Shown: positions 6,675 to 64,000 of the stretch, piece after piece
Layout of the letters: each line of letters starts with the position of its first letter
Position numbering within the stretch: position 1 is the first letter of the stretch
NCBI RefSeq assembly: GCF_019891175.1
Contig: NZ_CP072600.1
Coordinates: forward strand, 1,240,001-1,304,000
DNA: 64,000 bases
DNA from: Leptothermofonsia sichuanensis E412
GTDB lineage: Bacteria; Cyanobacteriota; Cyanobacteriia; Leptolyngbyales; Leptolyngbyaceae
Reading direction: 5' to 3'
The notes under the pieces: model-generated
Database searches by the model: none
What the model saw: only the letters and a program-made list of their open reading frames with translations
What the model was told of the DNA's origin: nothing
Program-made: the position numbers and the translations under genes

Positions 6675-7715
6675 ACTTGAGTTCCCGCAACTACTGACTT
6701 CTCCATCTAACCAGTTCTTCGTAAGGAAAACAACAAACCTAGAACATTACCACTTGCGGGAGCATCTGTTTCTATTTTTGGCAGACACAACGATTCCGCC
6801 GACCAATAATGCCAGTGAACAGGCGCTGCGGATGAGTGTGATTTTTCGCAAGGTGACCAATGGATTTCGCTCCGAGTGGGGCAAAGATTTGTTCGCCGAT
6901 ATTCGTTCTGTGGTGAATACGGGTAAGCGTCAAGGGCTTTCTGCTTTTGAGTCCATTTCTGCGGCCTTAAACCCTCACCAATCCCTATTCCCGCTGAGTT
7001 GAGCAATTACTTTCATCGAAACAAACGACTGGGTAGCGCGGGTCATAAGGGCGTGTATAAACGCTCAAAACATCTTCCATGTAGTAAACAAACTCGCCAT
7101 TGGACTTCGGCGGAATTACCCAGCATTCCTGCAACCAGGGTTTGAGTTCGTTTTTTTCAGCGTTTGCCGCACGGTTTCATGCGAAATGCTCTCTACATAT
7201 CCCAACTCAACCAGTTGGTCTGCTAACAGGCGAACGCTCCATTTCCCTTGTCCTTCAGGAGTCTCGGCACACGCCAGCGCAATCAAATGCGCTTCTTGTT
7301 CGCCATCGAGTAAGCGGGGCTTGGTTCGACTTGGAGTTTGACGCCCTAAGGCAGCCTCTAAACTCTGTGCAACAAAGCGTTGCCGGACTCGTTCAATCGT
7401 AGATACCCTAATATCGAGTGCATCACTGATATCTTGATCCCGCCAACCGCCGCCTTCCTGGTTGATGTCAGCTTTCAGCAAAATTCGAGCATGATTGAGT
7501 TTATAAACGGATGTTTTTCCGGTTGTTGTCAGACTTTCTAAAGTCTCCCGCTCTTCACAGCTAAGGGCTACGATGTATCTCTTTTGGGGCATGGTTGGTA
7601 AGAGGTATCTGCCTCTCCATTCTCCCCTAATCTATCCATCAAAACAAAGTTGACAGACTACTAGTAAAATAAGTTTAGAGACGCTTTGCTCTGCCCTTTG
7701 TGAGAGGACTCATCC

Positions 7716-47833: not shown

Positions 47834-48844
47834 TTGAAACAAAGCTATGCCGTGATGACACCGTCTGACCTTGAAGAACTGGCAAACCAGGGTGACACAG
47901 GGGCAATCGCTGCTTTGCTCGCGCAAGTTGTGCGGGGACGGGGGATTGTGGTCAGAGTCCATCAACGGGAAGACTGTTTGCATATCCTCCTGGAAGCTGA
48001 TCTGGTGCCCGATCAGGTAGCTGCCGTTCGGCTAATTCGCAAACGACTGGTTGACCTGGGACTGGCGATCGCTCGTACCGTCAGAATCTATGGGCGGCAG
48101 CGAGGTGAAACAAAACCTGCCTGGACTGTTGCCTTTGAGCTGGTCAAGCCCCCAGGTTCCAACCCAGACGAGAGCCATCCAGCCGTCCAGAGGGTTGGGG
48201 CTAATCGGCTTTCCTCCCCTGGGCAAAAATCCCTACCTGGTACACTCCTGTTCCAGATCGGACAGTTCACCTACACTACAGGCGATCTTCAGAATCTGCT
48301 GACCAGGCTGGATCCAATGAAGGTGGCGTTTGTTGTTGTGCTGGCACTTTACGGGCTGTTTGGGGCTTCCAGCTACACCGTGGAGCGATTTCTGGAAGGA
48401 GGCGATCGCATCATGATGTTTCTGCATGGTGTGAATCTGATCTTTCATGAGGCAGGGCACGTTATCTTTGCAATTTTTGGGCGGTTTTTACACATTCTGG
48501 GCGGATCGCTGATGCAATTCTTAGTGCCTGCTGGCATTGCAGGATATTTCTTTTTTCATCGTCAGCTTTATGCTAGTGCAGTTACCCTTTGTTGGGCAGC
48601 CCAAAACCTGTGGGATGTTTCCATCTACATCAAAGATGCTCAGGAACGAGCACTTCCACTATTAGGAGGCGAGGCTGTTTTGCACGACTGGCATTTTCTG
48701 CTGCTGGATTTGAATTTACTGACACAGGATCAGTTGATTGGCAACCTGGTGTTTTGGATAGGTACCCTGCTCTATCTGGCAGCCATTTTGGCGGGCCTTT
48801 ACTATGCGCAAATCAGATGTCAATCCCTGGCAGACAACCCCTAG
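47834..48844 (+). CDS. Membrane protein with HEAGH motif and a cyanobacterial N-terminal module
   Basis: 336 residues; start TTG at 47834 or ATG at 47855 (MTPSDLEEL). The N-terminal 100 residues (LEELANQGDTGAIAALLAQV, CLHILLEADLVPDQVAAVRL, RKRLVDLGLAIARTVRIYGR, AWTVAFEL) are a module that I recall recurring in many cyanobacterial proteins, of unknown role. After a linker come transmembrane helices (about 172-192, 205-240, 240-290, 305-328). The second contains LIFHEAGHVIFAIFG, the HExxH zinc-protease signature inside a helix, as in intramembrane (site-2-type) proteases; HDWHFLL near residue 287 offers further ligands. Not identical to the classic M50 pattern (no NPDG seen). Either a new intramembrane metalloprotease or an inactive relative. 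Confidence 0.7.
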   Translation: MKQSYAVMTPSDLEELANQGDTGAIAALLAQVVRGRGIVVRVHQREDCLHILLEADLVPDQVAAVRLIRKRLVDLGLAIARTVRIYGRQRGETKPAWTVAFELVKPPGSNPDESHPAVQRVGANRLSSPGQKSLPGTLLFQIGQFTYTTGDLQNLLTRLDPMKVAFVVVLALYGLFGASSYTVERFLEGGDRIMMFLHGVNLIFHEAGHVIFAIFGRFLHILGGSLMQFLVPAGIAGYFFFHRQLYASAVTLCWAAQNLWDVSIYIKDAQERALPLLGGEAVLHDWHFLLLDLNLLTQDQLIGNLVFWIGTLLYLAAILAGLYYAQIRCQSLADNP

Positions 48845-50416: not shown

Positions 50417-52912
50417 CTACAGGCTTGACATCATCGAAGGCAGCAAGAAGCCGAGGGCAATTGAACCAATGCCCAACACCAAGAGCCAGAAACGGGGATG
50501 GCTGGTGACATTCCATTTGCTGGGGCAATCCATCTTCACCAGGTCGATCCAGGGCATGATGCCGCGCCGAAACCATCCAACTACGGAAACTTCGCGACTG
50601 ACAAAACTATCCGCCTGACTCATGCCAAACAGGAAGTTCCCCAATGGACCAAAGCGGGATGTATAGTGCAGATAAATCATGCCCGTGGAATCCTGCATTT
50701 TCAAATCCGAGCCGAACTTATAGCCAGCGTCGCCTCGACCAATCACAATTCCAGCCAATTTCACGGCACGACCCCGTAATGGACTGGCATAGGGATCAGA
50801 CATCAGGGCTAAAACATCCGTTTCAGGGGCACGGTTGAAGTCGGGGTACATAAAGACCATTTTCAGCAGAGTGCCCAATCCAAAGCCAATCAATGCAGGC
50901 GAGAGCGCAAGCCCTGGATTCCGATTGACAACAGCGAACGCGGCTCCAATCAACAATCCGACGAAACCCAGCACTTTGTCTGCCCATAGGACAATGACAT
51001 CTGTGGCAAAACTGCCGTAGAGTTTCTTCTTATTCAGACTGCGTCCTTCGCGCATGACCACACTCATGTCGAATTCAGTATCCAGTCCCAGTTGTTCGGC
51101 ATAGGTGCTGAGGGCGCGGACTCGTTTGCCTGTCAGAGGATGGGTAGAATTCAGTTCCATCCACCAGGCCCAGGGGTTGAACATATCCCACAGGAAGACT
51201 CGACCAATTTTCTGTGGTTCGGAGGCAACTCGGTAAGCTGTACCTGTAAAGGCGGCTGATTTGGGGTCAGCGATGCCCAGGGCACGGGTTCCCTGAAGCA
51301 CTTTACTGGGTTCTTTGCTGCGTTTGCCTTCTTCTAAAATGCCATAGGCAATTTTGACCAGCGCACGCGACAGTCCATTTGGGTTTCCGGTCACTTCAGC
51401 CGCAAAGTGATCGGCGTAATACTCCCGGGTGCGGGAGAGATATAGCAGCAGATATTCCCCAACGACATAAAAGACATAGGCCATGATGGTAATGCCGCGG
51501 GCACTGCTTTTGACCTGGCTGTTATCAACTCTGTCAGCGATCGCATCGATATAGACATAGAGGAGATAGGCGATCTGCACCAGAGTCGATGCCAGGGTCA
51601 TGACCGCAAAGTCCCAGTGGACGATGTGCCCTAGCTCATGGGCATAGACCGTAGCAATTTCATCATCATCCAGGTAGGTAAATAAACCTCGACTCACCAC
51701 CAGCCGGGCGCTATTAGGGAGAGAGCCGTAGGTAAAGGCGGTCGGGTTCTGGTCTTCAATAATGCCCAGACGGGGCTGCTTAAGGTTCTTTTGCTGGCAG
51801 ACTTCCCGCAGAATTCTTCCAGTCTCAGGGCTGTAGCGCTCAACTTCAGAGAGAGACATCCAGCGTATGCCATAGAGCCAGCCCTGGATCAAATCCATAA
51901 TGAACGGCGAAAGAAAGAAGATGGCGGCATTGGCAACCACAGTCAGGATGACCGCGATCGCAAATCCTAAGGTTGGGTTTTCACTCTCCACAATCAGCAT
52001 CAGGCTGAGAAACAGCACCAGAATCATCCCAGCTAGGAGAGAAACCGTGACCCCCGATGCCATAGACAGGCTGGCAGCAACTCCCTTCATCGGTAGCTTC
52101 ACGCCACGCCGATCGGATCTGCCTGCTTTGGGAATCGAGTTTTGGGTAGCCTGGGGAGTGGCACCCCGGGCATTTCTGGCAAAGGAAGGTCTGGAAGAAG
52201 TACCAGCGTCCACAGGGGCTACACTCAATTCTGTCAGTTCAGTATCTTCCTCTGGCTCCTCGGCTGGAACCATAGTCAGGAGAAACTGCTTTGCCCAGAT
52301 GCGGACATATTCTTTTTCGCTATTCATCAGTTCACGACAGAGGGCAATCGCCTGGGCCGTCTGTTCGCTCCCCTTATACGCTTTGACCAGCCACATTTGG
52401 GCCTGAGCGTAGTTACTTTCACCCGGACTGGTTCCCCGACAGTACTGTTCCAGATAATTCACCGCATCAACAAACCGCCGGGTCTTGAGTGCCTGGTTTC
52501 CTGCTTTGAGCAGTTCTGCTGAGCGCTCGGCGGAAAGTAAATTTTGGGGGAGAGCTGAATCCCTCACAGATTCTGATACCGCCGGATCTATGACTGGTTG
52601 ACTGGTTGAATCTTCTGCAACTGTCTGGGCATTTCCTTCCTGATGGGAGAGCGTCGGCAGTGTGCGTTGTGCCCACTCCCGTACCTGGGTGTGTTCACAG
52701 GCTGTCATTTGCTGACAGAGGGCGATCGCCTGCGAGATCTGTCCACTTTCCTGGTAAGCCCTGACCAGGTACATTTGCGCCTGAAAGAACTCTTTAGACC
52801 GATAGTTGGATTGACTTTGACAGAATGTTTCAAATGCCTGAACTGCTTCCGGGTAACGCCTTTGTTTCAAAGCATCCACCCCAGCTTGCAGCAAACCCGA
52901 AGGGGAAGACAT
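50417..52912 (-). CDS. TPR-fused M48 family membrane metalloprotease
   Basis: 831 residues from the ATG at 52912 (MSSPSGLLQ), with AGGAG about 10 bases upstream; the open frame runs further but without a site. Two TPR-like blocks (ALKQRRYPEAVQAFETFCQ and ALKTRRFVDAVNYLEQYC, residues 10-110 and 140-230). Then two transmembrane helices, and the HtpX/Ste24-type protease: YAHELGHIVHWDFAV (HExxH zinc site), and TREYYADHFAAEVTG (third ligand Glu region), further helices and a C-terminal part with about three membrane spans (WADKVLGFVGLLIGAAFAV, and WLLVLGIGSIALGFLL). M48 proteases degrade damaged membrane proteins. The TPR front is typical of cyanobacteria. Confidence 0.88.
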   Translation of the reverse strand: MSSPSGLLQAGVDALKQRRYPEAVQAFETFCQSQSNYRSKEFFQAQMYLVRAYQESGQISQAIALCQQMTACEHTQVREWAQRTLPTLSHQEGNAQTVAEDSTSQPVIDPAVSESVRDSALPQNLLSAERSAELLKAGNQALKTRRFVDAVNYLEQYCRGTSPGESNYAQAQMWLVKAYKGSEQTAQAIALCRELMNSEKEYVRIWAKQFLLTMVPAEEPEEDTELTELSVAPVDAGTSSRPSFARNARGATPQATQNSIPKAGRSDRRGVKLPMKGVAASLSMASGVTVSLLAGMILVLFLSLMLIVESENPTLGFAIAVILTVVANAAIFFLSPFIMDLIQGWLYGIRWMSLSEVERYSPETGRILREVCQQKNLKQPRLGIIEDQNPTAFTYGSLPNSARLVVSRGLFTYLDDDEIATVYAHELGHIVHWDFAVMTLASTLVQIAYLLYVYIDAIADRVDNSQVKSSARGITIMAYVFYVVGEYLLLYLSRTREYYADHFAAEVTGNPNGLSRALVKIAYGILEEGKRSKEPSKVLQGTRALGIADPKSAAFTGTAYRVASEPQKIGRVFLWDMFNPWAWWMELNSTHPLTGKRVRALSTYAEQLGLDTEFDMSVVMREGRSLNKKKLYGSFATDVIVLWADKVLGFVGLLIGAAFAVVNRNPGLALSPALIGFGLGTLLKMVFMYPDFNRAPETDVLALMSDPYASPLRGRAVKLAGIVIGRGDAGYKFGSDLKMQDSTGMIYLHYTSRFGPLGNFLFGMSQADSFVSREVSVVGWFRRGIMPWIDLVKMDCPSKWNVTSHPRFWLLVLGIGSIALGFLLPSMMSSL

Positions 52913-53127
52913 AGGATCTTTCTCCTGACTGGTTGATGAGTGAATTCCGGGGGCATAACCTGATAATTCCCTGAATTCAGCGTTATTTATCAACTTCAGC
53001 CCGGAGGAGGATGTTTCAGGAATAGAAGCCTGTACTTCATCCTTTAAATAGAAAACAAACCAGTCCCATACCATCATGGGACTGGCACAACAGAAACGGC
53101 GGTGTTTCAAGCTGGTTACTTAAGGCT

Positions 53128-56100
53128 TCACCACTCTGCGGGTTTTTCTGAGTTTTCCTCAGCCATCTCTTTGTCAGCGAAGTCTGTCTCCTTAAAAGCT
53201 TCTTCAAGACTAATTTCGGTACCTGCCAGATTATCTGAAAAAGCGGAATCCAGATCTAGAGAGGCATCGTCAGTTGGTGTATCCTCAAAAACCCCCCTCA
53301 GATTATTTAAATCAATGGTTCCATCGGGACCAAAGTAAATCTCAATCTCTTCGGTGACGGCGAAACTTCCTGCCATTTCTTCATCCTGAGCAACATCCTC
53401 TAAACCAAAGTCTCTAGAAATGACGGCTTCGCCTGCAAACAGGTCGTCCGCTTTGAATGCAGGTTCCTCCAATTCAGTTGCTCCTAAAGGCTCCCCAAGT
53501 TGGGAGAAATGAGAGTCTAATTCCTCTGAAGCCAGTTCTGCCGTTGGTTCTTCAAAAGGAGCACTGACCTCTGGAAAAGCTTTGGATTCTTCATCGGACC
53601 AATCCAGATTCATGTCTGGATTGGTTTCAGGAGAGTTCTGGAACAATGCTGTAGCGCTAGAGATTTCCTCAGTCTCCGCTCCAGGCAATTCCAGGCTAAA
53701 TTCTGGCGATGTCTCCTCAATTTCGGTTCCAGACGGCTCCAGATGCAGTTCTGGCGTACTTTCGGGAGATTCCTGGAACAAAGCACTCACATCTGGAAAG
53801 GCTGCTTCGGGTTCCTCTGCGGTCAATTCCAGATTCATGTCTGGAGTGAGTTCAGAAGATTCCTGGAACAAGCCACTGATATCCAGATTGGTTGCAATTT
53901 CCTGCTCAACAGGTTCCAGGCTGAGTTCTGGAGCACTTTCAAAGGATTCCTGGAAGGAAATGTTTACGTCAGGGATCCCTTCAGTTTCCCCTTCAAGTGC
54001 CTCCAGGCTGAGTTCTGGCGTACTTTCAGGGGCTTCCTGGAACAAGGCACTCACATCTGAAAATGCGGCTTCAGGTTCCTCATCCGAAATTTCTAAGTTT
54101 ATTTTTGGCGTGGGTTCAGAAGGTTCCTGGAACAAGACATCCCCGTTAGAGGTGTCTTCTGCTTCCTCTTCAACAGGTTCCAGATTCAGTTCTGGGGTAC
54201 TTTCAGGAGCTTCCTGGAACAAAGCGCTCACATCTGGAAAGGCTGCTTCAGGTTCCTCTGTGGTCAATTCCAGATTCAGGTCTGGCGTGGGTTCAGAGGA
54301 TTCCTGAAATAAAGCATTCATATCCAGGTTTGCTGGGATTTCCTGCTCAACGGGTTCCAGGTTGAGTTCTGGAGCAGGTTCAGAGGATTCCTGGAACAAG
54401 GCACTCACATCTGGAAAGGCTGCTTCGGGTTCCTCTGCGGTCAATTCCAGATTCATGTCTGGAGTGAGTTCAGAAGATTCCTGGAACAAGCCACTGATAT
54501 CCAGATTGGTTGCAATTTCCTGTTCAACAGGTTCCAGGCTAAGGTCTGGAGTACTTTCAGAGGATTCCTGGAAGGAAATATGAATGTTAGCGGTTTCTTC
54601 TGCTCCCTCTTCAACAGGTTCCAGATTCAGTTCTGGAGCAGGTTCAGAGGATTCCTGGAACAGGGCACTCACATCTGGAAAGGCTGCTTCGGGTTCCTCT
54701 GCGGTCAATTCCAGATTCATGTCTGGAGTGAGTTCAGAAGATTCCTGGAACAAGCCACTGATATCCAGATTGGTTGCAATTTCCTGTTCAACAGGTTCCA
54801 GGCTAAGGTCTGGAGTACTTTCAGAGGATTCCTGGAAGGAAATATGAATGTTAGCGGTTTCTTCTGCTTCCTCTTCAACAGGTTCCAGATTCAGTTCTGG
54901 AGCAGGTTCAGAGGATTCCTGGAACAAGGCACTCACATCTGGAAAGGCTGCTTCGGGTTCCTCTGCGGTCAATTCCAGATTCAGGTCTGGCGTGGGTTCA
55001 GAGGATTCCTGAAATAAAGCATTCATATCCAGGTTTGCTGGGATTTCCTGCTCAACAGGTTCCAGGCTGAGTTCTGGAGCACTTTCAAAGGACTCCTGGA
55101 AGGAAATATCAGCGTTCGAGGTGTCTTCTGCTTCCTCTTCAACAGGTTCCAGATTCAGTTCTGGAGCAGGTTCAGAGGATTCCTGGAACAGGGCACTCAC
55201 ATCTGGAAAGGCTGTTTCGGGTTCCTCTGCGGTTAATTCCAGATTCATGCCCGGAGTGGGTTCAGAGGATGTCTGGAAAGAATCACCTTCATCCAGGGAA
55301 CTGATTTCAGGCTCCTGCTCAATCGCTTCCAGATTCAGGTCGGAAGGGTTTTGAGCGGCTTCCTCAAAAATAGCACTGACATCAGGAAGCGCTTCCTCTT
55401 CAATCCCTTGAGAAAAGTCGAAGCCTAAAGCGGGTGATACTTTTGCTTGTTCTTCAAAAAAAGCATCTATACTGGCTGAAAGTTCTTCAGCACTGGCTGA
55501 AAGTTCTTCAGCACCATCATAGGAGGGTTCTGAAGTGATATCGATAACGTCTTCAGGTGGCTCCTGAAAGAGTCCGCTAGGATCGGGGAAGATGTCTGCG
55601 ATCGCCTCAGCCGGGACTTCCAGACTCAAGTCGGGCGTCTCTTCCAATGGTGCTGGAAAGATTTCATTCACATCAGGGAAGCCCTCTGCAACGACGCTAA
55701 AGGTTCCTGCTGGGTCAATTAAGGATTCTGACACTGACCCGGAATCCATTTCAAAATTGACTTCTAAAGGCAATTCAGACGCCGTTTCTATTCGTTCTTC
55801 TTCTTCTGATAATTTATCGCCTAATAATTTATCGCCTAAGTTATCAACATTAGGGGCATCCGTATCAGGAGCCAGACTTTCAGCCAGGGCTACCTCCAAA
55901 ATCTCTTCCATCGCGGGATCGATCATGTCCTCGGACTCAAGCTGAAGGGGTTCCTCCATCACCTCAGAGATTTCTTCAATGATGGGCACCTCTGCTTCAT
56001 CCTCAAAGGTCGCTTCGTCATCCAAGAGATTGTCAGAACTGGCATCGTTCAAACTGGCTTCATCCAGATCAACCTGATTTGAGCCGATCTCATTCAGGTC

Positions 56101-57318
56101 AATTGCATTCAGGTCAACTGCATTCAGGTCAATTGCATTCAGATCGATTTGATCTGAATCATTCCCGTGCTCCTGACTTGGAGCTTCCTCATGCAACCAG
56201 GTATCCCCAGAGTCCATCGGTGCTTCCATACCCAATGCATTGGTTGCTGAAAGAGTGACTTCTGCGATCGCCCCATTGGTAACTGCTTCAGAAATCCCTG
56301 CCTGGCTGACCGTTTCGGTCAGAGTCGCAGCTTGATTGACCTGTTCATCGATCTCAACCGGGCTGTTTTCCTCAGTGGCTGTCCGAAATTGCTTCCTGAC
56401 ATAAGTGGGCTTGCTCTCTTTCTTTTGGAACAACCCTTTAATCACATCCGAAATTACTGCAAACATGCCAGTCCCCTTTTCTTTTAAGGTAGAGCGCGAG
56501 TTTTCTGCACTTTTCGCCAGAGGAGAAGTGCTTTGCTTGGGTTCCTTTTCAACCTGACTGGTAACTGTTTGGACCTTTTCAGCAATGTCTTGAACTGTCG
56601 CTTCAGCCTGGTCAGCCAGGGTTTCAAAGGTTTCACTCAGGGAACTTTCTATTGATTGAGCAGTATTGATCGCATCTGAAATAACCTCATCCGCAGATTC
56701 GGTTATGGTTTCGATCGCGTCATTCAGGGAATCTTGATTGGGCTGAAGTTCAGCGATCGGGTCGGAAGCCCCTGCCTCAAACTCGGCGATGGTTTCTTCA
56801 ACCTCGATGGGCGGCTCTGCCAGATGTCTCCGACGAGCGGAAGCAAAATCTGCTGGACTCAGCGGCACATAGGGTTCATCCACCCTGGATTTCAGGGTTG
56901 CCCTTGGTTGACTTTTTCCTGTGATCAGATTCTGAACTTTTTGTTTCAGGTTCTCAAATTGGCTGACTGCTTGTCCAGAGAGATTGGAGAGCGTTTCAGG
57001 ACGGACCAGGTTTCCCAGAATTGACTGCCACTCTTCTGAAGTTGGGATCGCTGTCTGCTCTTCCAAAGGCACCACCTGTCGCCTCAACGTCAGCGTTTGC
57101 CAGCCAAACCAGGCTAACAAAGCGACCCCTGCCGCCTGCCCCAACAACAGCCCACCTTTGATTCGTTCCGCACAGATCCACAAAACAAGAGCGTAGAACA
57201 ATCCAATGCCGCTCCAGATAAAATCGTTTTTGCGGTGTATCTCTGGAAAAAAGAAGGCAGCCATGTAAAGGGCAAAACTGCCTAAGCCAACCACAAGTGC
57301 CAGGAGATAAGTCAGCAT
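53128..57318 (-). CDS. Ycf66-type membrane protein with a giant acidic tandem-repeat extension
   Basis: 1396 residues from the ATG at 57318 (MLTYLLALVVGLGSF; GGAG about 9 bases upstream). The first 90 residues are a Ycf66 membrane module: three helices with FFFPEIHRKNDFIWSGIGLF and ALLAWFGWQTLTLRRQ. Ycf66 is conserved in cyanobacteria and some plastids, function unknown. The rest is a very acidic soluble region: linker (90-300), NAIDLNAVDLNAIDL short repeats (about 405-425), then from about 680 to 1230 some 19 units of about 28-30 residues built on FQESSEPxPELNLEP and EExEAAFPDVSALFQ. Ordinary Ycf66 proteins are far shorter. The repeats are also near-identical in DNA, so the length is probably variable. 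Confidence 0.85.
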   Translation of the reverse strand: MLTYLLALVVGLGSFALYMAAFFFPEIHRKNDFIWSGIGLFYALVLWICAERIKGGLLLGQAAGVALLAWFGWQTLTLRRQVVPLEEQTAIPTSEEWQSILGNLVRPETLSNLSGQAVSQFENLKQKVQNLITGKSQPRATLKSRVDEPYVPLSPADFASARRRHLAEPPIEVEETIAEFEAGASDPIAELQPNQDSLNDAIETITESADEVISDAINTAQSIESSLSETFETLADQAEATVQDIAEKVQTVTSQVEKEPKQSTSPLAKSAENSRSTLKEKGTGMFAVISDVIKGLFQKKESKPTYVRKQFRTATEENSPVEIDEQVNQAATLTETVSQAGISEAVTNGAIAEVTLSATNALGMEAPMDSGDTWLHEEAPSQEHGNDSDQIDLNAIDLNAVDLNAIDLNEIGSNQVDLDEASLNDASSDNLLDDEATFEDEAEVPIIEEISEVMEEPLQLESEDMIDPAMEEILEVALAESLAPDTDAPNVDNLGDKLLGDKLSEEEERIETASELPLEVNFEMDSGSVSESLIDPAGTFSVVAEGFPDVNEIFPAPLEETPDLSLEVPAEAIADIFPDPSGLFQEPPEDVIDITSEPSYDGAEELSASAEELSASIDAFFEEQAKVSPALGFDFSQGIEEEALPDVSAIFEEAAQNPSDLNLEAIEQEPEISSLDEGDSFQTSSEPTPGMNLELTAEEPETAFPDVSALFQESSEPAPELNLEPVEEEAEDTSNADISFQESFESAPELSLEPVEQEIPANLDMNALFQESSEPTPDLNLELTAEEPEAAFPDVSALFQESSEPAPELNLEPVEEEAEETANIHISFQESSESTPDLSLEPVEQEIATNLDISGLFQESSELTPDMNLELTAEEPEAAFPDVSALFQESSEPAPELNLEPVEEGAEETANIHISFQESSESTPDLSLEPVEQEIATNLDISGLFQESSELTPDMNLELTAEEPEAAFPDVSALFQESSEPAPELNLEPVEQEIPANLDMNALFQESSEPTPDLNLELTTEEPEAAFPDVSALFQEAPESTPELNLEPVEEEAEDTSNGDVLFQEPSEPTPKINLEISDEEPEAAFSDVSALFQEAPESTPELSLEALEGETEGIPDVNISFQESFESAPELSLEPVEQEIATNLDISGLFQESSELTPDMNLELTAEEPEAAFPDVSALFQESPESTPELHLEPSGTEIEETSPEFSLELPGAETEEISSATALFQNSPETNPDMNLDWSDEESKAFPEVSAPFEEPTAELASEELDSHFSQLGEPLGATELEEPAFKADDLFAGEAVISRDFGLEDVAQDEEMAGSFAVTEEIEIYFGPDGTIDLNNLRGVFEDTPTDDASLDLDSAFSDNLAGTEISLEEAFKETDFADKEMAEENSEKPAEW
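54320..54847. repeat. 264-bp tandem duplication in the Ycf66-type gene
   Basis: Two adjacent units of 264 bp (54320-54583 and 54584-54847), nearly identical, each covering three protein repeats (88 residues). Further diverged copies of the same units fill about 53.6-55.3 kb. Confidence 0.85.
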
Positions 57319-57743
57319 AATTGCTACTCCAACCATGCCTGAAGATTACCTATTAACTCTACTCCGCCAGGGGAGGATGGGGTTTAAGTTTTGAGTGATT
57401 GTGTTAAGAAACTCAAAGATCCAGCAAAAAATCGATTGCTCTCTATGATTCTCAGCGCCAGAGATGTCAGGTGATATTAACAGAAGATTGGGCGATGACC
57501 GGACATCAGATATTCTGCCTCCTGCTGAAATAGCCCTGCCAATAGTTCTCCTGCAACTTTCAATCTCTCAATGATGCTCCTTCTTCCCTAGACTTTCCCC
57601 TTCATATTTCCCTCATTTCCCCGTTCCCTAACAAGAAAGACTTTGCGACAGCTTAATGTTATCTTCCAAGCTTTCCTGAGGCGATCGGGCTACGCTGTGT
57701 AACATAGTCAGCCCCGGCACTTGCAGAGTTCTCAGGAAAACTT
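57319..57743. other. Divergent spacer between the Ycf66-type gene and gnd
   Basis: 425 bp that must contain both promoters. GTGTAACATAGT at about 57698 could be an extended -10 (TAACAT) for gnd. No repeat or RNA structure seen. Confidence 0.45.
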
Positions 57744-59252: not shown

Positions 59253-62200
59253 CTATTTCTTCACCTCCAGAGGGGGACATGCATTGGGGGGCAGGCGTAA
59301 ATAGCGGAGGCATTCTTCGGGTTGAAGCTGGCGCAGGCTGCGATCGCGGGCAACCCTCAGCAATCCATCCCAGGTGGTTGCCCACACATAGAGTTTGCCG
59401 CTCTGACTGAGGGTTGCAATGTACTGGCCATCAGGACTAAAGAACGCCTGTTGAATCGGTTCGCTATTGTCTTCAACCGGGCGCAGAATGGCTTCTTCAG
59501 TTCCCGTTTCAGCATCCCACAGGCGGGCGGTGCCATCTGCGCTGGTAGTCACTAATCGCTGTCCATCCGGGCTAAATTTAGCATCCAGAACCGGCCCTCG
59601 ATGTCCTGCGAGTAAAACACGCATAGCTCCTGTTTTGGCATCCAGCACTCTGGCTGTTCCATCCAGACTGGCCGTGATGACCAGTTGGTTATCCAGACTG
59701 AACTGGATGCTACTCACGGCGTTCCGGTGGGGCAGGGTGTTGAGTAATGCACCATTGGATACCTGCCAGATACGGGCTGTGCGATCGCGGCTGGCGCTGA
59801 CTACGAGTTGCCCATCTGAACTGAACTGGGCCTGCTCGATTGCCGCCGTATGCCCCTTCAAACGAGTCATTAACTTACCCGATTGCACATCCCACAGATA
59901 AATCAGCCGGTCATCCCCCACACCAAGTAGTTTCTGAGCATCCGGGGTAAATGCAAGTTGACGAATTGATTGAGCTGGTGCCTGGTGCGACTGGGCTGCC
60001 TGTGTTTTGCGCCTGAAGGGTGAATCAATCTGCCGCAGAGCGCTAACACTCCCATTGGATTGAATGCTCCAGATCTGGATGTTGCCTGACTCTGTCGCGG
60101 TGGCCATCTGGTGGCCATCTGGACTAAATCCGACTCCGGTCAATTTTGTTCCGGCAGGCAATTTATTTAAAACCTTTGCTGTGGTTGTCTGGTGAACAGG
60201 GGATCGAGACGAATCACCCGTCGATCCCGTTGGTATCCCATCAGCCGTTGGGGAGGCTGTCTGCAAGACCGCCTGAGATTCCCCTTTGATCCTGGACATC
60301 ATCCAACGGGCTGACTGCCCTTCGTTTTTTGGCTTAAGCAAGGAAATCGATTCACCAACCCATTTGAGGAAGTTAGACCCCGTATTTTTCAGCGATTCGG
60401 GGGAATGGAGTTCAGCCAGGGAATGAGATGAATAAGTCCTGGAGGCATTACCTGAGGGGGGGGTGTGGGGAAAGCTCCAGTTACGGATGGTACCATCCAT
60501 TGCTACAGTCACCAGTTCTCCAAAGCCTCTGGGACTGAGAGGCTCCACGTTGGACTGGTTCTTGGTAATAGCATGACGGCTGGATGCGATCGCTGCCGTT
60601 GTTCGAGACGGATCGAATTTCTCTACCATCTGCTCAGATCTAGGGTTGCGAAACGTCACCCATTGGATTTTTTCTCCTGCCATCTTCAATGTTGGAAACT
60701 CGCTGCCGACTTCCGTTGCCCAGAGGCGGATAGAGCCATCCGCACTGGCAGTGGCGATCAAAGCGCCATCACTACTGAACTGCACCGAACTAATGGCATC
60801 CGAATGCCCTTTCAGGGTTTCAACCAGATGAGCCGTGTGTAGATTCCACAAACGGGCTACAGGAACTGGCTCCTGATTGTCGATGGCGAATCCAGCCGTG
60901 ACAACGTACTGGTTATCCGGGCTGAAGGCGATCGCAGTCTGCCCAGAGGAAACATCCCCCTTCCCTATCTGAGTATTCTTCAAACGCAACCGTCCAGAAC
61001 GAATATCCCATAGCCAAAATCGGTGATGTTGATCGATAGCTGCTACCACCGTTCCATCGGGGCTGAACACAGTTTGCTCCAGAGATTCGGAATGGGTTGT
61101 AAATTGTTCAACGATACGGGCGGCCCGCGGCTGAGGTGAGGAGTTTGATGGGGATGATTTAGTCTCATCGATTTGCCACAGGCGAACCATGCCATCATTG
61201 GACACCGTCGAAACTTGCAATCCAGAGGGACTGAACGCCGCATGTCTGACCTTGCCAGGCTGGGACAGGACTTGTTGCGCCTGCCCAGTACTGACTTGCC
61301 AGAGCTGAACGGTATTGCCACTTACCGTTAAAACCTGCTGTCCATCCGGGCTAAAGGCAATATTCTGAACCTCAGCTTTGTGGGAAAGCTGTCTGCCAGG
61401 CTTACCCTCGTTGACCTGCCAGATGCGAACCGACGGCTGGTCATCGACCGTAGCAATCCACTCACCATCGGGGCTAAAAACCAGTTGTTTGATAACTCCG
61501 CCAGCCGCTTCCAGTTGATACAAAAGTGCCCCGGATTCCACTGACCAGACTTGAGCAACACCTGAGTTGACCGCGATCGCCGCCAGTAACCGCCCATCCG
61601 GGCTGAAGCTGATAGTTTTGATGGCAGAAGAACTGCGAGGTTCCGACTGTGAATTTTCGGACTCCTGCTCGCCATCTCTTTTCTCTGCCCACCGCAATAC
61701 CTTCTCAACCGATTCGGTCTTGAGCGACCACAGTTGAACCGTGCCATCTTCACCAGCAGTCGCCAGATAGGGCTGATTTGGACTGAAAGCGACCTGATTA
61801 ATTTTGCCCTGTTTCCCCTGCAGGTAGGCTTGAAGCCGCAGCCTTTTCAGTGCCGAGCGCAGGCTTGCCTGGGCTTCATAGGTGCGCCCGCCCTTTTCTG
61901 CCGCCAGACGGCTGATTAACAGTGCCGTTGTGGGGTCGCCATCCGGTTCTTGCAAAATTGATTGGGCGATCGCTGCCTGCTGGCGCGATGTGGCAATTTG
62001 AAGCTGGTAATCTTTCTCAGTCTGACTTTTGAGTGATGTCATGTACTGGTTTAAGGTCACTCCCAGCGCTACCAGCAGGGTACAGGGAATAACCATCTGC
62101 AACAGGCGCAACTCTTTCTGGATGCGACGAGTTTCTTCCCGACTGACGGTGATGAACCGATGCGCCAGCGCAGAAAGTTCGTCTGGGAAGGTTTTCAGAT

Positions 62201-64000
62201 AATCCTCAGCATCAATCAGGCGATCGCCATGCAACAGATAATCATTCGAGCGGGGTTCGTCTGCGTTCTGCCATTCCCTGGCGGCATGTTCAATCCGACG
62301 CTGCCGTCTCAACATCTCCCGATTTTCATCTAACCAGAACCGCAGCATTGACCAGTGCCGGATTAAGGTTTCGTGGGCAACATCAACTGTTTCCTGATTG
62401 ATTGCACAGGATGTTTGAGTGTAGCAGCGCTCTGCCAGATGGTTGGTCGGTAGTTGAGTAATGCGATTGAGCAGGTGTTCTCCTTGTAACCCAACCGATT
62501 GCAGTCTCGTAGAAAATTCTGGGGTGGCTGGATTGGCTTTAGGAAATTTGCCCTGGCACATTTGAGCCAGACGCAGTGCTGTAGAAACACTGGCAATGCT
62601 CTGGTCAACCCGCTCCTGGTAGCGGTTTGATACAATCTGGTTGGTGACCACCAGCTTGGCGGTGACCAGCTTTTCCAGGACCCGGTCTACTAACTCTACT
62701 GGAAACCGGGGGCTGACCAATTCTGATTTGAGTACCCGGCGGCGGGTATCTTCTGTGCCGTCGCCGAGCTGGGTGAGTGCAATAAAAATGCGTTTGGCAA
62801 CCTGTTGCTCTTCCAAACTAAGGCTGTAGAAGATTTCATCTGCCCGCTTTTGCAGCGTTCCGCGCACACCACCTAATTCCGTGTAGGCATCCAGCGTGAG
62901 CCGATCAGGGCCTCCATCCGGATCTGGTTGCCGCTGTCGCCACAGTTCTAGCAGCGTGTACTGAAGCAGAGGTAACTCACCAGGGGCACCAACCACATCT
63001 AACAGGATGTTGTAAACTAGATTGGGGTCACAGATGGCTCCCACCTTCTGGGCAGGTTTGACGACAGAAGCTTTGATCTGTTCATAGGTCAGGGGAGTCA
63101 CTGTCACCAGGTTTTGCTCTATTTGCTCTGCCAGCCCGTTATACAGGGAGCACTTACCAAAAAAGTCTGCTCGCAGCACGATGATAATGCTGAGACAATC
63201 ACTGGCTTCTAGCATTGCGGTCAGCAGACTGTTAAAGAATCGGTGGCGATCGCGTTCTGCCTGGGGTCCCTGACACAGGGTAAACACTTCCTCAAACTGG
63301 TCAATAATCAGCAGCAGGCGCGAATTTCTCCCATATTTAGACGAGATCAGACTGGCACGCACCAGGTGAGAAAGTCCGTTCCCCCCTTCCTGGAGCAACG
63401 CCTCTGCCCGGCGCAGATGTTCCGCCCGGTCTACGGTGGGTGCCTGGGAGTTGACAAATGCACTCGCTAGACTTCTGAGGGGCTGATCTGTCGGAGTAAT
63501 GAGCTGAATCCGCCAGCGATCGCTACCAGAAAACTTATGTCCCTGTCGCAGTTGGTGAATCAACCCGGCTCTGACCAGGGAGGATTTACCACTCCCGGAC
63601 GCGCCTACAACTGCTACAAAGTTACGAGTTTTAAGTTTTTCAATCAGTTGATCTGTCAGGTCTTCCCGGCCAAAAAAATACTCAGCATGGGCTTCATCAA
63701 AGCACTCCAGTCCCCGGTATGGGCAAATTTCCTGAGACAGTTCTGTTTTGAGCAGGGTCGGTGCTCCCTGGCAGCGAGTCAGAACAATTTCACTCCCGGA
63801 GTTTTCAAACAGTGGCTGTTGGGTTTCCGTTTTCAGAGCATTGCTCACCCAGTCTGTGAGGGCATAGTTTGTCACTGTTCCCGTGGGAACCCGGCCTGGA
63901 TCCAACCCTTCAATTAAGGCTTGAGTGAACACACTATATTTGCCTTCGATTGCCTCGTATGCCATTTCGTATTCCCGCGAGGCTGCCATGAACAGGCGAT
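59253..64000 (-). CDS. Caspase-like / STAND NTPase / WD40 repeat protein (N-terminus outside window)
   Basis: About 1581 residues are visible; the gene enters from beyond the right edge. The first part (RLFMAASREYEMAYEAIEG, YSVFTQALIEGLDP) is the end of a caspase-like (C14) domain whose catalytic His/Cys are not in view. Then comes an nSTAND1-type NTPase: CPYRGLECFDEAHAEYFFGR, Walker A GASGSGKSS, Walker B LLLIIDQFEEVF, and a winged-helix tail (VDVAHETLIRHW). A transmembrane-like helix (VIPCTLLVALGVTL) near residue 690 precedes about 14 WD40 repeats (for example IKTISFSPDGRLLAAIAVNS, GTARLWDAETG). Members of this group are cyanobacterial signalling or programmed-death proteins, some anti-phage. 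Intact as far as visible. Confidence 0.9.
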   Translation of the reverse strand, partial: RLFMAASREYEMAYEAIEGKYSVFTQALIEGLDPGRVPTGTVTNYALTDWVSNALKTETQQPLFENSGSEIVLTRCQGAPTLLKTELSQEICPYRGLECFDEAHAEYFFGREDLTDQLIEKLKTRNFVAVVGASGSGKSSLVRAGLIHQLRQGHKFSGSDRWRIQLITPTDQPLRSLASAFVNSQAPTVDRAEHLRRAEALLQEGGNGLSHLVRASLISSKYGRNSRLLLIIDQFEEVFTLCQGPQAERDRHRFFNSLLTAMLEASDCLSIIIVLRADFFGKCSLYNGLAEQIEQNLVTVTPLTYEQIKASVVKPAQKVGAICDPNLVYNILLDVVGAPGELPLLQYTLLELWRQRQPDPDGGPDRLTLDAYTELGGVRGTLQKRADEIFYSLSLEEQQVAKRIFIALTQLGDGTEDTRRRVLKSELVSPRFPVELVDRVLEKLVTAKLVVTNQIVSNRYQERVDQSIASVSTALRLAQMCQGKFPKANPATPEFSTRLQSVGLQGEHLLNRITQLPTNHLAERCYTQTSCAINQETVDVAHETLIRHWSMLRFWLDENREMLRRQRRIEHAAREWQNADEPRSNDYLLHGDRLIDAEDYLKTFPDELSALAHRFITVSREETRRIQKELRLLQMVIPCTLLVALGVTLNQYMTSLKSQTEKDYQLQIATSRQQAAIAQSILQEPDGDPTTALLISRLAAEKGGRTYEAQASLRSALKRLRLQAYLQGKQGKINQVAFSPNQPYLATAGEDGTVQLWSLKTESVEKVLRWAEKRDGEQESENSQSEPRSSSAIKTISFSPDGRLLAAIAVNSGVAQVWSVESGALLYQLEAAGGVIKQLVFSPDGEWIATVDDQPSVRIWQVNEGKPGRQLSHKAEVQNIAFSPDGQQVLTVSGNTVQLWQVSTGQAQQVLSQPGKVRHAAFSPSGLQVSTVSNDGMVRLWQIDETKSSPSNSSPQPRAARIVEQFTTHSESLEQTVFSPDGTVVAAIDQHHRFWLWDIRSGRLRLKNTQIGKGDVSSGQTAIAFSPDNQYVVTAGFAIDNQEPVPVARLWNLHTAHLVETLKGHSDAISSVQFSSDGALIATASADGSIRLWATEVGSEFPTLKMAGEKIQWVTFRNPRSEQMVEKFDPSRTTAAIASSRHAITKNQSNVEPLSPRGFGELVTVAMDGTIRNWSFPHTPPSGNASRTYSSHSLAELHSPESLKNTGSNFLKWVGESISLLKPKNEGQSARWMMSRIKGESQAVLQTASPTADGIPTGSTGDSSRSPVHQTTTAKVLNKLPAGTKLTGVGFSPDGHQMATATESGNIQIWSIQSNGSVSALRQIDSPFRRKTQAAQSHQAPAQSIRQLAFTPDAQKLLGVGDDRLIYLWDVQSGKLMTRLKGHTAAIEQAQFSSDGQLVVSASRDRTARIWQVSNGALLNTLPHRNAVSSIQFSLDNQLVITASLDGTARVLDAKTGAMRVLLAGHRGPVLDAKFSPDGQRLVTTSADGTARLWDAETGTEEAILRPVEDNSEPIQQAFFSPDGQYIATLSQSGKLYVWATTWDGLLRVARDRSLRQLQPEECLRYLRLPPNACPPLEVKK

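Follow-up and report, generated by a model that had tools for sequence, protein, structure and literature searches.

The window, a stretch of 64,000 nucleotides of Leptothermofonsia sichuanensis E412, encodes a Ycf66 protein of 1402 codons in which an N-terminal membrane module is followed by a long acidic tail, and this tail carries an amplified LF-[QE] motif that recurs in two other genomes. The reading we prefer, to which we give close to an even chance, is that of a membrane-anchored, multivalent docking tail in the cytoplasm, with the LF core as its putative contact site. An initial annotation of this DNA, made from the letters alone, had described a giant acidic repeat extension on a Ycf66 module and suggested that it looks like a docking tail; its observation is confirmed here, and its interpretation is partly supported. 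The parts of the gene are as follows.

53128..57336, minus strand: Ycf66-A gene of 1402 codons, with a second possible start at 57318; assigned by Pfam and by tree placement in clade A
57082..57309, minus strand: Ycf66_N module, residues 10-85 (Pfam); three predicted helices, taken as membrane helices
56845..56871, minus strand: linker motif YVPLSPADF (residues 156-164), with a similar pattern in 16 of 115 family proteins
56383..56472, minus strand: short segment, amphipathic by eye, with the KPTYVRKQFR motif, residues 289-318
56091..56142, minus strand: IDLNAVDLN array, 3.5 copies of 15 bp (Tandem Repeats Finder)
53617..55587, minus strand: LF-[QE] motif repeat region, residues ~584-1240
54340..55278, minus strand: tandem array with a period of 264 bp (88 residues), 3.6 copies, 93% matches (Tandem Repeats Finder)
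53194..53349, minus strand: block near the C-terminus (residues 1330-1381) that is conserved in the genus relative L078

The frame is open throughout. It had been drawn only as far as 57318, where an in-frame ATG (residue 7) does agree better than residue 1 with where most aligned relatives start, but the open frame reaches 57336. The proposed anchor is borne out by a match of residues 10-85 to Ycf66_N (PF07444; E=1.9e-31, 108.5 bits against a Pfam cut-off of 22.3). AlphaFold2 places helices of the module at 2-23, 32-50 and 56-82 (numbered from the second Met; modest confidence), in a weak model of residues 7-329 (mean pLDDT 68.2, pTM 0.30) in which module and linker are helical without an overall fold. 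With this model, Foldseek returned no matches at E<=0.001 and eight at E<=10, and a search of the PDB with the N-terminal 112 residues gave no sequence relatives (best E 0.79). As a general rule, positively charged flanks mark the cytoplasmic side of membrane helices (the positive-inside rule). Because HRK lies between helices 1 and 2, and LRR follows helix 3, the tail would be expected to lie in the cytoplasm.

Ahead of the acidic tail, the region of KPTYVRKQFR forms a basic island. The pattern Y[VI]RK[QDE][FY] falls between linker and tail at residues 312-318; it is found in 34 of the 115 proteins and marks a subgroup, while YVRK is present in 36. Beyond residue 100, the protein contains 18.3% E and 7.1% D as against 1.8% K and 0.9% R, over a length that agrees with the roughly 1300 acidic residues first described. 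Its computed pI is 4.05, the acidic C-terminal extension that goes with type A (see below) is present, and in net negative charge per residue it ranks 5th of 115. All three tail segments lie on the disordered side of the charge-hydropathy boundary, and the tail is probably disordered.

The tail holds 20 F[QE]E[SPA] sites, 14 LFQE sites and 18 P[EDG][LMI][NSH]LE sites, in good agreement with an earlier count of some 19 repeats. Units are mostly 29 or 30 residues long, so that three of them make up the 88-residue period. More diverged tandem arrays extend across 53738-55278 (Tandem Repeats Finder). The 264-bp array supports the recent tandem expansion that had been proposed, although its units, described as nearly identical, are a little less alike than that; a separate NAIDLNAVDLN array is real but tiny. 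Downstream of YVRKQFR, [LIF]F[QE] occurs 17 times against a shuffled mean of 2.4 (z 9.6), a count that none of 300 shuffles attained. Tandem duplication accounts for much of this enrichment by raising copy number; the sites that lie outside the array number four against 0.95, a modest excess that 1.3% of 5000 shuffles also reached. A Pfam match to SpoU_methylas_C at residues 707-728 (E 4.9e-5, 23.4 bits, cut-off 25) falls inside the repeats and is regarded as spurious. The possibility that the repeat is a mobile or shared domain was set aside, as all 11 matches of the 90-aa repeat in its own genome (E<=10) fall in this one frame. A plasmid search gave no match.

To place this protein in its family, two types of Ycf66 have to be distinguished, for which the names type A and type B were coined in the present analysis. 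A tree of 43 N-termini (20 of type A and 23 of type B; bootstrap not fully settled) separates the types into two clades with 100/100 support, and the window gene groups with the 20 A rows, apart from the 23 B rows. Lengths and tails were compared in a set of 115 distinct proteins, made up of the window protein, the best 80 of 112 loci from a contig search with the N-terminus as query, and 34 of 46 regions picked as likely A copies from a search of 58 genomes (the other 12 duplicated contig-search loci and were dropped); its members were not typed individually, and it is skewed to type A and to relatives of the window. These proteins are 191 to 1402 aa long (one, L063, is truncated by a contig end), with a median of 418, and the window protein is the longest. 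The 5th and 95th percentiles, 234 and 624 aa, correspond to a usual type-A tail of roughly 140-530 residues, and to call Ycf66 a normally short protein, as the initial annotation did, is misleading for these type-A-leaning proteins. Ycf66 was also found in 232 of 242 genomes drawn from the class (E<=1e-12), where, among the matches listed, the longest frame has 1405 codons and the next two 923 and 691.

Of the 115 proteins, 112 have a tail with a net negative charge, the exceptions being L091 and L077 (0) and L074 (+27). In addition, the DNA coding for the tail holds tandem arrays (Tandem Repeats Finder score >=50) in 48 of the 115, with periods divisible by three in 103 of 105 rows (overlapping rows counted separately, no control genes run). 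A long acidic tail is a habit of the family, often accompanied by in-frame tandem duplication, and the window protein is its extreme in this set. These same figures feed the strongest rival to a docking tail, namely that selection has favored length and charge alone, producing a long, soluble, negative and disordered cytoplasmic brush in which the exact motif is incidental. Such a brush might serve as a spacer, in crowding, or in binding cations or polybasic surfaces, and would grow by tandem duplication; negative charge maintained across greatly differing sequences, arrays of varied period and the wide range of lengths are all in keeping with it, and we regard it as possible but doubtful.

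Where this explanation falls short is the motif itself. The genus relative L078 (a MAG whose contig is the same as in G001) carries [LIF]F[QE] nine times downstream of YVRKQFR, compared with 1.3 in shuffles, and L036, from genome G006 of the same family as the window, has seven against 0.94, in each case with none of 300 shuffles as high. No other member of the 115 set reached the cut-off of two [LIF]F[QE] sites or three sites of the looser form hFx[ED]. The looser form occurs 18 times in the window tail, 10 times in L078 and four times in L036, where it is weak (4 against 1.5, with 13 of 300 shuffles as high). LF-[QE] therefore exceeds what composition predicts in three tails, in one of them at sites that no detected array covers, and these tails contain 4.6-5.3% F, against a median of 1.8%, for which a pure charge brush has no need. 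The tail of L062 has 4.7% F, yet falls below the motif cut-off. Because the enrichment is confined to three related genomes of the set, LF-[QE] cannot be a general function of Ycf66-A.

The setting of the motif differs among the three genomes. The L078 protein has 913 aa and a single short array (7278-7465), and all nine of its LF sites lie outside this array. DNA around these sites has a mean identity of 37% and a maximum of 47%, as against 29% in random windows (95th percentile 38%); the excess over random is due in part to the motif itself, and at such identities a recent duplication is unlikely, whereas an old one may have occurred. L036, on the other hand, has an array of its own with a 99/297-bp period (33 residues) and SLEIDELFEAEPETPLAEV-type units, for example SLEIDELFEAEPETPLAEVKFE and SLDTNDLFEQEPELSLTEAELD; as assembled, its frame breaks after residue 737, and the array runs on for over 500 codons in a different frame. 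A unit of the window is 21-34% identical to units of L078 and L036, compared with 38-62% to the other units of the window. Together with the difference in period (29-30 against 33 residues), this low identity between genomes points to separate amplification in the window and in L036 around a shared core, and one ancestral motif may have seeded both. Indirect support for the multivalent docking first suggested for the window protein comes from this core, which is found again in two relatives whose repeat units differ or are absent.

In a tree of 41 N-terminal halves, the window protein, L078 and L036 group together (SH-aLRT 89), with the window protein and L078 joined at 98; in the 43-row tree, built on a shorter alignment, G006 did not group with the window and L078. 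A profile of 14 units matched three of the 58 genomes (E<=0.01), always in the Ycf66-A gene; as it was built from these same three genomes, their own matches arise by construction, and the information lies in the absence of others. In a sample of the class, it matched 2 of 291 genomes at E<=1e-4. G006 is absent among the matches listed from that sample; given its match in the search of the 58 genomes, it was presumably not drawn.

We postulate that the docking tail would work as follows. The three-helix module would anchor the protein in the membrane with its C-terminus in the cytoplasm, and the linker and basic YVRKQFR motif would lead into an acidic tail of ~1080 residues. Along this tail, a short motif of the approximate form D-[IVM]-x-x-LF-[QE]-E-x(2)-E-x(2)-P-[DE]-x-NLE would be presented many times over. 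The LF core probably contacts a cytoplasmic partner, and the flanking acidic residues may keep this core exposed and soluble. Many weak sites on one membrane anchor could then increase avidity and concentrate the partner locally. It is tempting to go further and to regard LF-[QE] as a new short linear docking motif of bacteria that has undergone separate amplification on a membrane anchor in two lineages of cyanobacteria and that clusters a photosynthesis- or metabolism-related cytoplasmic partner at the membrane, possibly with the Arg-rich type-B Ycf66, but this fuller picture is, taken whole, unlikely.

A different view is that the repeats have grown in a nearly neutral manner within a tolerant disordered region, so that the added residues do nothing. 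The recent 88-residue copies and the shorter protein of the genus relative would fit this view, as would the dN/dS of 0.45-0.63 obtained when longer stretches are compared with a shift, in part out of register. In the two best-defined unit types, however, pairwise dN/dS is 0.35 (seven A-phase units) and 0.27 (seven B-phase units), and units with the same core were amplified in two genomes. Array periods almost always divisible by three also argue against neutrality, though they are expected of any gene kept in frame. Past the array, the C-terminal block of 52 residues is still 56% identical to L078 (pS 0.75, pN 0.27), compared with 81% for the N-terminal 100 residues (pS 0.60, pN 0.10). With all 1402 codons open and this block conserved, a pseudogene is ruled out; the gene is maintained, and the reading frame passes across the array to the end of the gene. 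We consider neutral growth quite improbable. The initial annotation had named tail-less relatives, together with signs of decay in this gene, as evidence that would count against it, and the opposite was found, the relatives being tailed and the gene intact to its conserved end.

The window genome also encodes a second Ycf66, of type B, which has 270 aa and a tail that is Arg-rich (20% R) yet charge-balanced (net -1). At E<=0.001, Ycf66 was found in 57 of 58 genomes (this one and its relatives), and two or more Ycf66_N matches are present in 52, with types not assigned for all. Type-B proteins, taken from the 41 of 42 loci that matched a B query (L207, without a match, was left out), are 222-401 aa long, and their tails are net positive in 12 cases, zero in 7 and net negative in 22. 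That acidic A tails bind Arg-rich B tails to form a membrane-bound network or condensate, an idea invited by the two well-separated clades, by the frequent occurrence of two copies and by the arginine content of this B tail, is very unlikely, as B tails are balanced rather than basic, which weakens simple charge complementarity, and as the sole strong Ycf66 match in G035 is of type B.

Compared with the Ycf66 family (PF07444) at large, the docking tail proposed here shares the N-terminal module and stands apart by its 1402 aa and LF-[QE] repeats. Likenesses to other systems are by description. The disordered carboxysome linker CsoS2 is not known to be a membrane protein. It shares the principle of a disordered linker, as far as the available part of the source describes it (PMC10484944). 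Tic62, a plant FNR-docking protein, likewise joins a conserved N-terminal module to a lineage-specific C-terminal docking module, although, in the portion of the account available, the former is NAD(P)-binding (PMC1847441); it is unrelated to Ycf66_N. Borg tandem-repeat proteins, according to an excerpt of their description, also have in-frame repeats that create disordered regions and are often membrane or extracellular proteins (PMC9879509). The window gene differs from these in that it belongs to a conserved family and lies on a bacterial chromosome.

The literature naming ycf66, by title and the start of the abstract, consists mostly of plastid-genome papers, and, to the extent of this incomplete coverage, contained no functional study of Ycf66. 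We take slr0503 to be the ycf66 gene of Synechocystis. This gene appears in a list within a proteome study of the hexane response, in the part of that study available. For a protein so widespread in cyanobacteria, whose gene also occurs in plastids, and for which we found no functional study, the amplified motif gives a direct handle: it can be made as a peptide, PDVSALFQESSEPAPELNLEPV, and any binder would be a first partner of a Ycf66 protein. Furthermore, the division into A and B copies with very different tails offers a concrete frame for studying the family.

Two further features border the gene.

53059..53086, minus strand: intrinsic-terminator-like hairpin of 12 pairs, just past the stop codon
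57744..59189, plus strand: gnd (6-phosphogluconate dehydrogenase), divergent neighbor of the Ycf66-A gene

Downstream lies an M48 peptidase gene, and no M48 cluster is among the 22 neighbor clusters listed, each present in at least four loci. An operon of the two genes is not favored, given this and the hairpin between them, which comes from a scan with no more sites than shuffles (4 such sites overall against 6.2). Upstream, by contrast, a gnd relative lies near at least 53 of the 115 Ycf66 loci, the window included (a lower bound, since a good number of loci do not extend far enough to include it), and it is nearly always upstream and divergent.

Arginine makes up 10.9-20.9% of the tails of the second Ycf66 paralogue, type B, across a sample of 41 loci (L002 and 40 others), and a Y-x-[DE]-Y-x-P motif, counted by eye, lies within the last 25 residues at 36 of them. 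The net charge of these 41 tails is positive in 12, zero in 7 and negative in 22. At L036, the locus of the acidic-tailed paralogue Ycf66-A in genome G006, the reading frame is broken within its own repeat array and resumes in a different frame, possibly reflecting an assembly error or a real frameshift.

Genes noted within the window, besides its Ycf66-A gene:

47834-48844, plus strand: 336-aa protein, no Pfam family at E<=1e-5
50417-52912, minus strand: M48 peptidase, 831 aa, with an N-terminal TPR region
59253-63989, minus strand: large NTPase that matches Pfam nSTAND1 at E=1.3e-117 and carries numerous WD40 repeats

The 336-aa protein, for which the Pfam search returned no family at that threshold, looks like a membrane protein when judged by eye. 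The nSTAND1 NTPase gene lies close to the window edge, and its upstream portion may extend past it.
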